From positions 1 to 43,817 of the forward strand of contig JANXWE010000084.1 in the NCBI GenBank assembly GCA_025351325.1: a stretch of 43,817 nt of DNA, in the 5' to 3' direction. The notes below the pieces were generated by a model, which saw only the letters and a program-made list of their open reading frames with translations, was not told the DNA's origin and made no database searches. The DNA comes from Fimbriiglobus sp. (GTDB lineage Bacteria > Planctomycetota > Planctomycetia > Gemmatales > Gemmataceae). The stretch's first letter is position 1; each line of letters begins with the position of its first letter. This document shows positions 16,019-43,817 of this stretch, one piece after another. The position numbers and the translations under genes are program-made.

Positions 16019-16102
16019 AGTTCCAGGTTCCAAGTTCCAAGTTCCAGTTAAAAACCAAGAACCCGATTCCAAACTTGGAATCTGGAACTTGGAACCTGGA
16101 AC

Positions 16103-16103
<1 letters not shown>
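16019..16103. repeat. Inverted repeat between atpD and atpC (TTCCAGGTTCCAAG family)
   Basis: Bases 16019-16039 and 16083-16103 are a perfect 21-base inverted repeat around a 43-base loop that contains further TTCCAA copies. The right arm touches the atpD stop codon. The same motif is repeated inside the left arm (TTCCAAGTTCCAG). It could form a hairpin in the atp message between the last two genes. Confidence 0.75.
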
Positions 16104-17593: not shown

Positions 17594-17674
17594 ACGAGCC
17601 ACCGGGCTTGCCCCGGTGGAAGGAGGAACGGAGAGGGCGGGCAGTCCGCCACCGGGGCAAGCCCGGTGGCTCGT
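17594..17674. repeat. Perfect 26-base hairpin between atpG and atpD
   Basis: Bases 17594-17619 (core GAGCCACCGGGCTTGCC) pair without mismatch with 17649-17674 across a 29-base loop. It lies between two co-transcribed genes, so it is unlikely to be a full terminator and looks like an inserted dispersed palindrome. Confidence 0.85.
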
Positions 17675-21553: not shown

Positions 21554-21569
21554 GGTGGATCTCTAAACC

Positions 21570-21739
21570 GGTAGGGGCACCCCTCGTGGGTGCCCCGGCG
21601 AACCGGATGCTCAGTCGGCAATCGAAATTCAGTAAGTCCAATCTACACGCCGCGGAACGTGGCATCCGGTTCCGGGCACCCACGAGGGGTGCCCCTACCA
21701 GTCCTGCCAATTACGGGCACCCACGAGGGGTGGCCCTAC
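21570..21739. repeat. Inverted-repeat cluster between atpF and atpH
   Basis: GGTAGGGGCACCCCTCGTGG (21570-21589 and on to 21595) is exactly matched in reverse at 21674-21699, and the outer flank GAACCGGATGC (21600-21610) pairs with 21662-21672. A third, slightly changed copy of the right arm lies at 21715-21739. The 186-base gap is filled almost entirely by this element, which looks like a mobile palindrome rather than an operon signal. Confidence 0.85.
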
Positions 21740-25897: not shown

Positions 25898-26386
25898 ATG
25901 CTTATTGGAATACTATCAGATACGCACGATGAATTGATTCGCACTCGGAAGGCCGTAGCACTCTTGCAGGATGCGGGTGTCGAAGCATTGATTCACTGTG
26001 GGGACTTCATCGAAGCGACAATTGTGATGGAATGCGCCGTACTTCCATTTTGGTTTGCCTTCGGCAACAACGATTCAGACAGCGTCCCAGAATTACAACG
26101 GACCGCCGAGCAAACCAGGTCGACTTGCCTCGGCTGGGGCGGAATTTTTGAAATTGGTGGCAAGCGAATCGGCGTGACCCACGGACATATGTCCGACGGT
26201 TATTGTTCGAGAACCCTCACTATTTGTTGACGGGTCACTCCCACATTTCTAGCGATTCCATTGTTGGGTCAGTACGGCGGAAACCCCGGCGTATTGCACC
26301 GGGCGGTTGAATACACAGTCGCCGTTTTGGATCTACAGACAGATGATTTGCAATTCTTGAAAGTGCTGGATAAAATCAGTCCATGA
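25898..26386 (+). pseudogene. Broken metallophosphoesterase (YfcE/MJ0936 type)
   Basis: The first part reads as a good phosphodiesterase: GILSDTHDE, EALIHCGDFIE, AFGNNDSDS and GVTHGHMSDGY. Near 26201-26208 one base is lost, because the next frame gives FENPHYLLTGHSHISSDSIV, and near 26279-26284 a second shift (one extra base or two missing) leads to NPGVLHRAVEYTVAVLDL and a proper end at 26386. The five metal-site motifs are thus all present but in three frames. The total length is still a multiple of three, and its end overlaps the DUF433 start by four bases (ATGA), so the break is recent. The encoded enzyme cannot be made as it stands, unless the assembly is wrong here. Confidence 0.85.
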
Positions 26387-26577
26387 ATCCCCTCCTCGCC
26401 CGCATCGCCATCGACCCCGCCATCTGCCATGGGAAACCGTGCATCCGCGGGTTGCGCTATCCCGTCGAAACGATGCTCGAACTCTTGAGTTCGGGCATGA
26501 CCATCGACGAAATCCTCCTCGACTGTGAGGACTTGGAGCGGGACGATTTGTTGGCGACGCTGGCGTATGCAGGCTGA
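26383..26577 (+). CDS. Short DUF433 protein (antitoxin-like)
   Basis: The 64-residue product has the DUF433 core: IAIDPAICHGKPCIRGLRYP, VETMLELLSSGMTIDEILL and DLERDDLLATLAYA, a winged-helix-like domain often paired with a DUF5615 PIN-like toxin. It stops abruptly after AYAG where relatives run on for about ten more residues, and no DUF5615 partner follows. A second, decayed copy lies at 27925-28058. It overlaps the phosphoesterase relic by four bases. Confidence 0.7.
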   Translation: MNPLLARIAIDPAICHGKPCIRGLRYPVETMLELLSSGMTIDEILLDCEDLERDDLLATLAYAG

Positions 26578-27630: not shown

Positions 27631-27928
27631 GCCTGCCACTTCTGATCACCCCGGCTGCCGAAGCGGATATCCGGGAGGCGCGGTTTTGGTACGAGGCCAA
27701 ACTGGCCGGTCTTAGCGACCGCTTGGTTCTGTGTCTCGAAGCGGCATTCGACCATATCAAACGGATACCTCGCGCTGGGAAGTTGGTCGAACCCGGTGTT
27801 CGGCGGGTGGTCGTCCGGAAGTTTCCGTACGGGGTTTTCTATCGAGTAGAATCCGATCGGATTGCAACCTTGCGGTCTATCACAACAAGCGCGACCCGAG
27901 AATGTGGAAGTCCAGACACGGCCCCTGA
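27627..27928 (+). pseudogene. ParE/RelE-type toxin gene with frameshift
   Basis: From GTG 27627 the frame gives LLITPAAEADIREARFWYEA, RIPRAGKLVEPGVRRVVVRK and FPYGVFYRVESDRIATL, typical of the ParE fold. The normal last strand, AVYHNKRDPRMWKSR, continues in the next frame from about 27870, because one G is missing after ACCTTG. In the present frame the protein runs on for over a hundred unrelated residues to 28295. The restored frame stops at 27928. The toxin is probably inactive because the C-terminal strand is needed for folding and activity. Confidence 0.85.
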
Positions 27929-28058
27929 ATCCCCTCCTCGCCCGCATCACCATCGGCCCCGCCATCCGCCATGGGAACCCGTGCATCCGCGGGTGGCGCT
28001 ACCCCGTCGAAACGATGCTCGAACTCCTGAGTTCGGGCGTGACCGTCGACGACATCCA
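27925..28058 (+). pseudogene. Decayed second copy of the DUF433 gene
   Basis: The stretch encodes NPLLARITIGPAIRHGNPCI and RGWRYPVETMLELLSSGVTV, nearly the same as the gene at 26383, with about a dozen base changes in 134. Its start codon is CTG instead of ATG, and similarity ends after DDI. The copy begins within the last codons of the ParE relic, so a duplication or recombination placed it there. Confidence 0.8.
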
Positions 28059-28417: not shown

Positions 28418-30001
28418 ATGTCTGTTGGGCCGGATAAAATTTGCGGGGTCGTCGCGCGGACTCGTCACAAGATGATGCAGGTGGAACTCCGCGAGGCCGC
28501 CGCACGCGGGGCGAAGTTCCTCGAAGTCCGGCTCGATTTCCTCTCCAAAGCGGTCGATTTCAAGCGATTGCAGGCGTACAAGGGCTGCCCGTGGATGGCG
28601 ACCTTCCGCCGGCCGGTCGACGGAGGCCGCTGGTCCGGGAGCGAAGCCGAACGTCAGATGGTGCTGCGCCAAGCCATCGTGTCGGGGGTCTTCGACTGGA
28701 TCGATCTTGAAACGGATGTCATCGAAAACATCCGGCGCTTCGGCCCGGTGAAGCGCGTCGTCAGTTACCACAACATGACCGAGACGCCGCAGAATTTGGA
28801 CGAAATCTACGACAAGATGCTGACCCAAGACGCGGACGTTTACAAGATCGCCGTGATGCCCAAGACCGCCGACGATCTGCAACGGATCGTTGAGATTCAG
28901 AAGCGGGCATCGAAGCCGACGGTGGCGTTTGCCATGGGGGAATTCGGCTTCGTCACCCGGTTCACGGCACTCAAGTTCGGCGCCCCGTGGATCTACGGCG
29001 CCTTCAACAAAGAACGCGGCATCGCACCCGGCTTACCGGCGCTGCACGAGTTCCGCACGACCTATCCGGTGCGGGCCATCGGGCCGAACACGAAGTTCTT
29101 CGCGCTGCTCGGCGACCCCGTCGGCCACAGCTACAGTCCGATTCTGCACAACCATCTATTCCGCCGCTTGAAAGTCGACGCGGTGTACGTGCCGTTCCGG
29201 GTTCCGGACGGGCAATTGGCCGACGCCACCGACGCCATGAACGCCGTGCCGATCAGTGGCTACAGCGTGACGATCCCGCACAAGGAAGCGGCGGCGCTGC
29301 GGGCCAAGGAAGTCGACCCGATGGTGCACATCGTCGGGGCGGCCAACACGTTGCAGGCGCGGGCCGACGGGACGTTCCTCGCGGCCAACACCGATTACCC
29401 CGCCGCACTGGAATCGCTGCGGACCCACCTGGATGCGAAGGCGTTGTCCGAAGGGGTGAAGCCACCGGATTTCTCGCAACTCTTCGTGTTGGTGCTCGGC
29501 GCCGGTGGGGCCGCACGGGCCATCGTCGCCGCATTGGTGCGGGCCGGCTCGAGTGTCACTATCACGTCCCGCACACCGGAGCGGGCGACTAAACTCGCCG
29601 AGCAAATCGGTGGCAAGTCGTGCGATTGGCAAGCCCGCCACAGCATAGCCCAGTGTGATATTTTGATTAATTGCACGCCGGTGGGAATGCACCCGAAGGT
29701 GGATGAATCGCCGGTGCACGCCAGCTTCCTGAAACCGGGCTTGGTGGTCTTCGACACCGTGTACAACCCCGAACATACGCTGCTCATCCGCGACGCCGAG
29801 AGCCGGGGCTGCACGACCATTTCGGGTGTCGATATGTTCGTTCGACAAGCGGCCAAGCAGTTCGAGATTTTCACCGGGATCGCCCCGCCGTTGGAAGACA
29901 TGCGCGAGCTGCTGCGCAAAGCGATGTCGCCGTTGACGGCAGCGATGGACACCGAAGCCGAGAAGAGCGGCGGCATGGGCGAAGCCGGAGAGAATGCGTG
30001 A
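28418..30001 (+). CDS. Fused 3-dehydroquinate dehydratase (type I) and shikimate dehydrogenase
   Basis: The 527-residue protein catalyses steps three and four of the shikimate pathway. The first 220 residues are type I AroD: FLEVRLDFL, VVSYHNM with the His, VYKIAVMPKT with the Schiff-base Lys, and MGEFGFVTRF. The second part is AroE: FALLGDPVGHSYSPILHNHL, SGYSVTIPHKEAA with the catalytic Lys, AANTDYPA, the NADP loop VLGAGGAARAI, INCTPVGMHP and ISGVDMFVRQAAKQFEIFTG. This fusion order also occurs in plants and some bacteria. Its stop overlaps aroK in GTGA, so both are likely translated together. Confidence 0.96.
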   Translation: MSVGPDKICGVVARTRHKMMQVELREAAARGAKFLEVRLDFLSKAVDFKRLQAYKGCPWMATFRRPVDGGRWSGSEAERQMVLRQAIVSGVFDWIDLETDVIENIRRFGPVKRVVSYHNMTETPQNLDEIYDKMLTQDADVYKIAVMPKTADDLQRIVEIQKRASKPTVAFAMGEFGFVTRFTALKFGAPWIYGAFNKERGIAPGLPALHEFRTTYPVRAIGPNTKFFALLGDPVGHSYSPILHNHLFRRLKVDAVYVPFRVPDGQLADATDAMNAVPISGYSVTIPHKEAAALRAKEVDPMVHIVGAANTLQARADGTFLAANTDYPAALESLRTHLDAKALSEGVKPPDFSQLFVLVLGAGGAARAIVAALVRAGSSVTITSRTPERATKLAEQIGGKSCDWQARHSIAQCDILINCTPVGMHPKVDESPVHASFLKPGLVVFDTVYNPEHTLLIRDAESRGCTTISGVDMFVRQAAKQFEIFTGIAPPLEDMRELLRKAMSPLTAAMDTEAEKSGGMGEAGENA

Positions 30002-30558
30002 CCCGGCACCTCTACCTCGTCGGCTACCGGGGCACCGGCAAGACCACGATCGGCCGCTTGGTCGCTGCCGCGCTGGGCTGGCCGTTCGTCGATTTGGATG
30101 AACGCATCGAAGCGGTTGCGGGTCGCAGCATTGCGGCCATCTTCGCGGACGAAGGGGAAGCCGGGTTCCGGGATCGGGAATCGGCGGCGCTGATGGAAGC
30201 TGCCTTACTCCCCCTCTCCGAAGCGGAGAGGGGGAATCAGAACCAAACCGTCATCTCCACCGGTGGCGGCATCGTCCTCCGCGAGGAGAATCGCCGACAT
30301 TTGAAGTCCACGGGGCTGGTGGTTTGGCTCCGAGCGAGTGCCGAAACGATCTGGGCCAGATTGCAAGCCGACGCCACGACGGCCGGTCGTCGGCCGAACC
30401 TCAGCGGGGGGGGATTGGCGGAAATCATCGAACTCTTGGCCGTGCGCGAGCGTTTCTACCAACAGATCGCGGATGGTTCGTTTGACACCGACGGCCGGTC
30501 GCCGGAAGCGTTGGCGGCCACTATCTTGACCAGGATTGATTTCTCCCCCTCTGACTGA
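29998..30558 (+). CDS. aroK: Shikimate kinase with an inserted palindrome
   Basis: The 186-residue kinase catalyses the next pathway step, phosphorylating shikimate. It has the P-loop LVGYRGTGKTTIGRLVA, FVDLDERIEAVAGRSI, FRDRESAALME, the VISTGGGIV run, and a lid RRPNLSGGGL with the conserved Arg. Between FRDRESAALMEAAL and NQTVISTGGG lies the extra segment LPLSEAERGN, encoded by a perfect palindrome (30209-30235) that is also found at 43616-43638. The insertion is in frame and replaces the short loop before the glycine motif. Start GTG 29998 overlaps the previous gene by four bases. Confidence 0.93.
   Translation: MTRHLYLVGYRGTGKTTIGRLVAAALGWPFVDLDERIEAVAGRSIAAIFADEGEAGFRDRESAALMEAALLPLSEAERGNQNQTVISTGGGIVLREENRRHLKSTGLVVWLRASAETIWARLQADATTAGRRPNLSGGGLAEIIELLAVRERFYQQIADGSFDTDGRSPEALAATILTRIDFSPSD
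30209..30235. repeat. Palindrome CCCCCTCTCCG-AAG-CGGAGAGG inside aroK
   Basis: TCCCCCTCTCCG (30209-30220) pairs perfectly with 30224-30235 across a three-base loop (AAG). The same palindrome is present at 43616-43638 in a non-coding region. Within aroK it codes for about ten residues without a stop. Confidence 0.9.
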
Positions 30559-43564: not shown

Positions 43565-43817
43565 GTGAATGGCAAGGATCACAATCTACTTCGCAGGTGA
43601 GACCTCACCCCCCGTCCCCTCTCCGAAGCGGAGAGGGGGAGCCGGAATGGCAGAATTTCAGTGCGTTTCGCGTCACGGAGTCACCCCCTGGTATCTTACC
43701 AGTGCAGTTGGAATCACGGTGGGTGAGTTCGATCCCCCTCGGGCCTGCGAGGCCGTCGGAGAGTGTGAACCCCCGCCGTTTCTTCCGCCGCGGAGCCCGA
43801 ACAGTCACCCGGGGATC
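43565..43817. other. Terminal 253-base non-coding region
   Basis: No gene is supported. Besides the palindrome at 43616-43638 it has a small hairpin CTGGTA-TCT-TACCAG (43688-43702), then GAGTTCGATCCCCCT near 43730, which resembles a tRNA T-loop but lacks a pairing stem. The window ends in the middle of this region. Confidence 0.5.
43616..43638. repeat. Palindrome CCCCTCTCCG-AAG-CGGAGAGGGG
   Basis: Ten-base perfect arms with an AAG loop, the same element that is inserted in aroK at 30209-30235. Here it is in non-coding DNA, 50 bases after the permease stop. Confidence 0.85.

Follow-up and report, generated by a model that had tools for sequence, protein, structure and literature searches.

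The shikimate kinase gene (aroK) of a Gemmataceae-like planctomycete contains an in-frame palindrome of 27 bp that is very probably a stem from a dispersed family of REP/BIME-like, non-coding repeats. The copies that persist inside genes are in frame, and the stem-only copy in aroK would be accommodated as a flexible loop. Reduced intracellular genomes (Rickettsia, Wolbachia) are the best-known setting for in-frame palindromes; those described here lie in a non-rickettsial planctomycete lineage, where AroK and ThrS are among the housekeeping enzymes that carry them. The stretch of DNA analyzed, referred to as the window, is a 43.8-kb contig of a 5.09-Mb draft genome (G000) in 382 contigs, the nearest relatives of which are Gemmataceae-like planctomycetes.

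The palindrome in aroK

The host gene occupies positions 29998 to 30558 of the forward strand, begins with GTG and encodes 186 residues that match the Pfam family SKI (E=4e-44) and shikimate kinases in the PDB. It is the sole shikimate kinase match in the genome. Its start is overlapped by the preceding forward-strand gene (28418 to 30001), a fused type I dehydroquinase and shikimate dehydrogenase recognized through Pfam DHquinase_I, Shikimate_dh_N, and SDH_C. Within the aroK frame, positions 30209 to 30235 read T-CCCCCTCTCCG-AAG-CGGAGAGGGGG-A, a perfect palindrome of 12-bp arms around an AAG loop, and the in-frame segment at 30208 to 30237 of the forward strand encodes LPLSEAERGN, just as the original prediction had described. 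As RNA, a 66-nt hairpin at this site is predicted to be strong, with a minimum free energy of -31.6 kcal/mol and a z-score of -4.9.

A second family member lies in intergenic, non-coding DNA near the end of the window (forward strand, 43600 to 43641). Its stem at 43616 to 43638 has the predicted 10-bp arms and is preceded by a one-sided family tag at 43600 to 43615 (AGACCTCACCCCCCGT), while the aroK copy is a stem with a tag on neither side. This tag and its stem form the left half of a dimer, followed at 43642 to 43690 (forward strand) by a spacer of the longer-dimer type that resembles those of 124-127-nt dimers elsewhere (e.g., L004 and L046) and lacks its right-hand stem. The pattern CCTCTCC-N0-12-GGAGAGG is matched twice in the window versus 0.00 times in shuffled sequence, so neither copy is a product of chance.

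The window contains other repeats as well. A 135-nt direct repeat in a region of short ORFs (26381-26515 and 27923-28057) is 92% identical between copies spaced 1542 nt apart. An inverted repeat with perfectly matching 26-nt arms, separated by 29 nt (ACGAGCCACCGGGCTTGCCCCGGTGG), spans 17594-17674 and possibly represents another MITE-like family, and a 28-nt inverted repeat of AGTTCCA units, 93% complementary, spans 16019-16103. Rfam gave no match in the window at the gathering threshold and none of relevance near aroK.

Absence from relatives and effect on the kinase

None of the 29 aroK homologues recovered from relatives carries the insert of about 10 residues. In the first protein alignment they show a gap of 9-11 residues at this position, and they include the closest homologue, from the sister genome G002 (67-68% identical), as well as those of G001 and G003. 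The best-matching solved shikimate kinase, 1shk, also lacks the inserted residues. Since none of these homologues shares it, the insert was gained in the present lineage; the finding that would have refuted the original prediction, the same segment in aroK of all relatives with no palindrome, was not obtained.

The kinase itself is well preserved. The P-loop, D32/D34, R58, the GGG motif (89-91), and the R132-P133 lid region are all intact, which supplies the P-loop, shikimate-binding residues, glycine motif, and lid arginine expected of a shikimate kinase, and these columns are invariant or nearly so in an alignment of 41 sequences that includes this protein. An AlphaFold2 model built from 41 sequences has a mean pLDDT of 90.4 and a pTM of 0.87, and its fold matches known shikimate kinase structures with Z about 25. 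The inserted block (residues 71-80) has a pLDDT of 66 and forms a low-confidence loop between a long helix (45-70) and a strand (84-87) leading into the GGG motif, with the rest of the fold predicted confidently. In parallel alpha/beta P-loop folds, strands begin on the side facing away from the active site. The entry point would be situated away from the nucleotide and shikimate sites, and the model is consistent with an enzyme that keeps its catalytic residues and tolerates the insert as a flexible loop. The earlier observation that P-loop, glycine motif, and lid are kept agrees with both the alignment columns and the fold match.

A dispersed repeat family

The genome contains 43 exact copies of the stem and 65 when up to 3 mismatches are allowed, compared with 0 for a reversed-pattern control; as the draft is split into 382 contigs, these copy numbers are minimal. 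Three genomes of the same genus contain 10, 47, and 236 stems, and counts across Gemmataceae-like genomes of the family range from 0 to 502. The unit consists of a 25-27-bp stem, reaching about 40 bp with its tag and 100-127 bp as a dimer. In almost all copies the stem is flanked on a single side by AGACCTCACCCCC and three variable bases, and there are 47 exact tag-plus-stem half-sites. Head-to-head (inverted) dimers, 100-127 nt long and with spacers of two types, are frequent, solo stem-plus-tag copies are common, and a single stem with tags on both sides was found once (55 nt). Among 18 elements, the outer base never varies: the left end is always A and the right end always T.

The same 18 elements gave no signal of a target site duplication, as 76 of 500 shuffled flank pairs scored as well. 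Short repeats beside the inserts in thrS, the CusA-type pump, and the GcvT-like gene were considered as target duplications, but their offsets are inconsistent and they were taken as chance. Among the copies examined, only those in aroK and in an AMP ligase gene (L048) are tagless. The aroK stem nevertheless matches the family at all 25 positions, the common GAAGC loop included, and this 25-bp stem, which is all that links the two, suggests that the copy descends from a tagged element. The palindromes look like a dispersed REP/BIME-like family, and the genome-wide count bears out the dispersal originally proposed, under which the palindrome should occur elsewhere in the genome.

In-frame copies in other genes

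When 64 stems were scanned by codon score and the candidates inspected, in-frame stems emerged in about eleven genes of this genome; eight genes of a sister species carry them as well. This gives the count of coding copies for which the original prediction had called; the genes were confirmed by Pfam. Besides aroK, in-frame stems are found in ThrS (HPLSASERGPGGEV), a CusA/CzcA-type RND pump (LPLSASERGPGGEV), an ATP-grasp protein (SPPNPLSETERG), a GcvT-like protein (PPLRSGEGE), a U32 peptidase, an unassigned membrane protein, and a prenyltransferase-like protein, the last close to the N terminus. Dimers are carried in frame by a molybdopterin oxidoreductase (...LSLSASERGPGGEV...TSPPNPLSEAERG), a DUF2344 protein, and PutA, where the dimer falls in a linker. 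In G002, HgmA-like, PSD1, and CoaBC-like genes have in-frame stems. A tagged stem at about 1516-1542 of L135 forms the C-terminal end of an upstream response-regulator-like gene (DLTPPPPLPSGEGE-stop). In-frame behavior is not general across genera, because in G024, a genome of another genus with 502 related stems, none of 33 scored copies (a sample from short contigs) was in frame; the coding scorer works in that genome.

With each insertion counted once, 12 read PLSxxERG, 3 read PPLRSGEG, and none use the third phase, compared with open-frame expectations of 0.44, 0.17, and 0.39 from 69 tagged stems (exact p about 0.001). Because the scans were tallied by hand and residues of the tag enter the flank score, this phase bias is suggestive rather than final.

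Most of the insertion sites tested are empty in orthologues. The ThrS, CusA-type pump, GcvT-like, and DUF2344 sites are empty in G002, and conversely the peptides inserted in the HgmA-like, PSD1, and CoaBC-like proteins of G002 are missing from relatives, with the G000 orthologue itself aligned for HgmA-like and CoaBC-like. The CoaBC-like and PutA cases are weaker, as the loop of the former varies in length among relatives and the linker of the latter is variable. Gains at empty sites indicate that new copies appear. Five sites are common to G000 and G002, with flanking identity of about 75-89%. At four of these (L012/L185, L048/L156, L142/L152, and L146/L181) the stems are identical at 22-25 of 25 positions against 74-89% in the flanking coding DNA, a difference that may reflect either constraint or exchange between copies. 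The shared site in the AMP ligase (L048 versus L156) is tagged and in frame in G002 and has lost both tag and frame in G000, where the frameshift next to the palindrome may represent decay or an error of the draft assembly.

Proposed origin and spread of the aroK copy

Copies of the family insert at new chromosomal sites, and those persisting inside genes are in frame, mostly in the PLS-xx-ERG phase. We propose that out-of-frame or disruptive insertions are purged. A stem-only copy, about 30 bp net, would have entered the aroK loop between helix 45-70 and strand 84-87. Its missing tag could have been lost after insertion, as in the AMP-ligase orthologue pair, or could reflect partial insertion. 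The word mobile, used in the original prediction, is supported in part: empty and occupied orthologous sites point to movement, but neither a link to a transposase nor a target duplication was found. A broader reading, in which a planctomycete palindrome family that is independent of a transposase, or moved by an unrecognized one, spreads through essential genes and repeatedly adds PLSxxERG in one preferred phase, so that mobile palindromes keep supplying free-living bacteria with protein loops, is put forward only tentatively and is doubtful at present.

It is possible, though unlikely, that the family is mobilized by one of the genome's own Y1 (HUH) transposases, which would recognize the stem and tag and move the element as in GTAG-type REP systems. 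Three Y1_Tnp genes are present, the absence of a target duplication would fit, and the head-to-head dimers resemble BIMEs. Neither stem nor tag, however, lies within about 1.5-2 kb of the three Y1 genes, and a variant stem lies near only 2 of 30 Y1 loci in relatives. In G031, 37 stems occur without any Y1 match, whereas G012 carries five Y1 genes but lacks stems, and across the genome and 23 relatives no association between the family and Y1/RAYT transposases was found. Another palindrome, which starts with GTAG (GTAGGGGCACCCCTCGTGGGTGCCC), is present in the window at 21567-21739 in three copies, one of them inverted; it resembles a classical GTAG-tagged REP dimer with one further copy, and this family could be the real RAYT partner.

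Somewhat less probable still is a local origin of the aroK palindrome, through a replication or template-switch error or through homologous exchange from another stem, with no insertion of a mobile element. The lack of a tag in aroK is compatible with such an origin, and the high stem identity at the sites common to G000 and G002 is in keeping with exchange between copies. The full 25-position match of the aroK stem to the family, GAAGC loop included, speaks against this reading, as does the AMP-ligase pair, which indicates that an inserted copy can lose its tag.

Retention for a benefit, with the PLSEAERG loop or the strong mRNA hairpin tuning the enzyme or its expression, is improbable to a greater degree. 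The disfavored third phase, the strength of the hairpin, and the intact stems at shared sites would be expected, but the inserts occur in unrelated proteins at unrelated positions and are mostly species-specific, purging of harmful phases explains the bias equally well, and some copies decay, as in the AMP ligase. An assembly error, or loop growth of the ordinary lineage-specific kind, that merely resembles the repeat can be set aside almost entirely. The genome is a fragmented draft with some copies at contig ends, but the 27 nt lie mid-contig and leave the frame intact. Chance would not be expected to produce a perfect 12-bp palindrome that is the same as a genome-wide family, and the family count rules out chance and loop growth as its source.

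Comparison with known palindromic elements

Rickettsia palindromic elements (RPEs) are dispersed palindromes found between genes and in frame in conserved genes, where they are solvent-exposed and absent from orthologues outside the group; they are typically 100-150 bp and encode 30-50 residues (PMC2229807, PMC3767692). The planctomycete stems resemble them, especially the short RPE-4 and RPE-6, in lying in frame in conserved genes and being absent from orthologues (aroK, thrS, CusA-type pump, GcvT-like, DUF2344, and others). They differ in that the sequences are unrelated, the host is Gemmataceae-like and not one of the Rickettsiales, and the aroK unit is 27 bp. Although it behaves as RPEs do, the family is not one of them. 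The suggestion of a bacterial analogue of RPEs is supported for the way the elements work. In-frame palindromes are not unique to Rickettsia: in-frame REPs have been published for several phyla, including those of O. terrae and R. conorii (RPE-4, RPE-6), among others (PMC3733652).

REPs of the GTAG and CGTC super-families have a short stem and an unpaired one-sided tag, occur mostly as head-to-head dimers, and are mostly extragenic with some in frame in ORFs; CGTC REPs show no transposase association, so a RAYT flank is not required of them, and Planctomycetes are mentioned only among the hosts (PMC3733652). The present family is like REP/BIME elements in the wide sense, with a 20-40-bp palindromic unit, high copy number, a one-sided tag, and inverted dimers, the aroK copy being tagless. 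It belongs to neither super-family as defined, because its tag is AGACCTCACCCCC, and it departs from RAYT-flanked REPs in having neither stem nor tag beside its own three Y1 genes.

MITEs such as Correia/NEMIS (107 bp), ERIC, and YPAL also form in-frame fusions (PMC2229807). The planctomycete elements share with them a length of about 100-130 bp, terminal inverted repeats, the lack of a transposase gene, and in-frame gene fusions, but differ in that no target duplication was found and solo stem-plus-tag copies are common. In our literature search, no publication turned up that describes this family, be it from Gemmata or from other planctomycetes. The empty and occupied sites of sister species allow a direct test of whether inserts are neutral, phase-purged, or adopted, and the family offers a way to ask how REPs lacking a RAYT partner are mobilized. 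In the terms of these comparisons, it is a new palindrome family of a known kind, in-frame and REP/RPE-like, in Planctomycetota.
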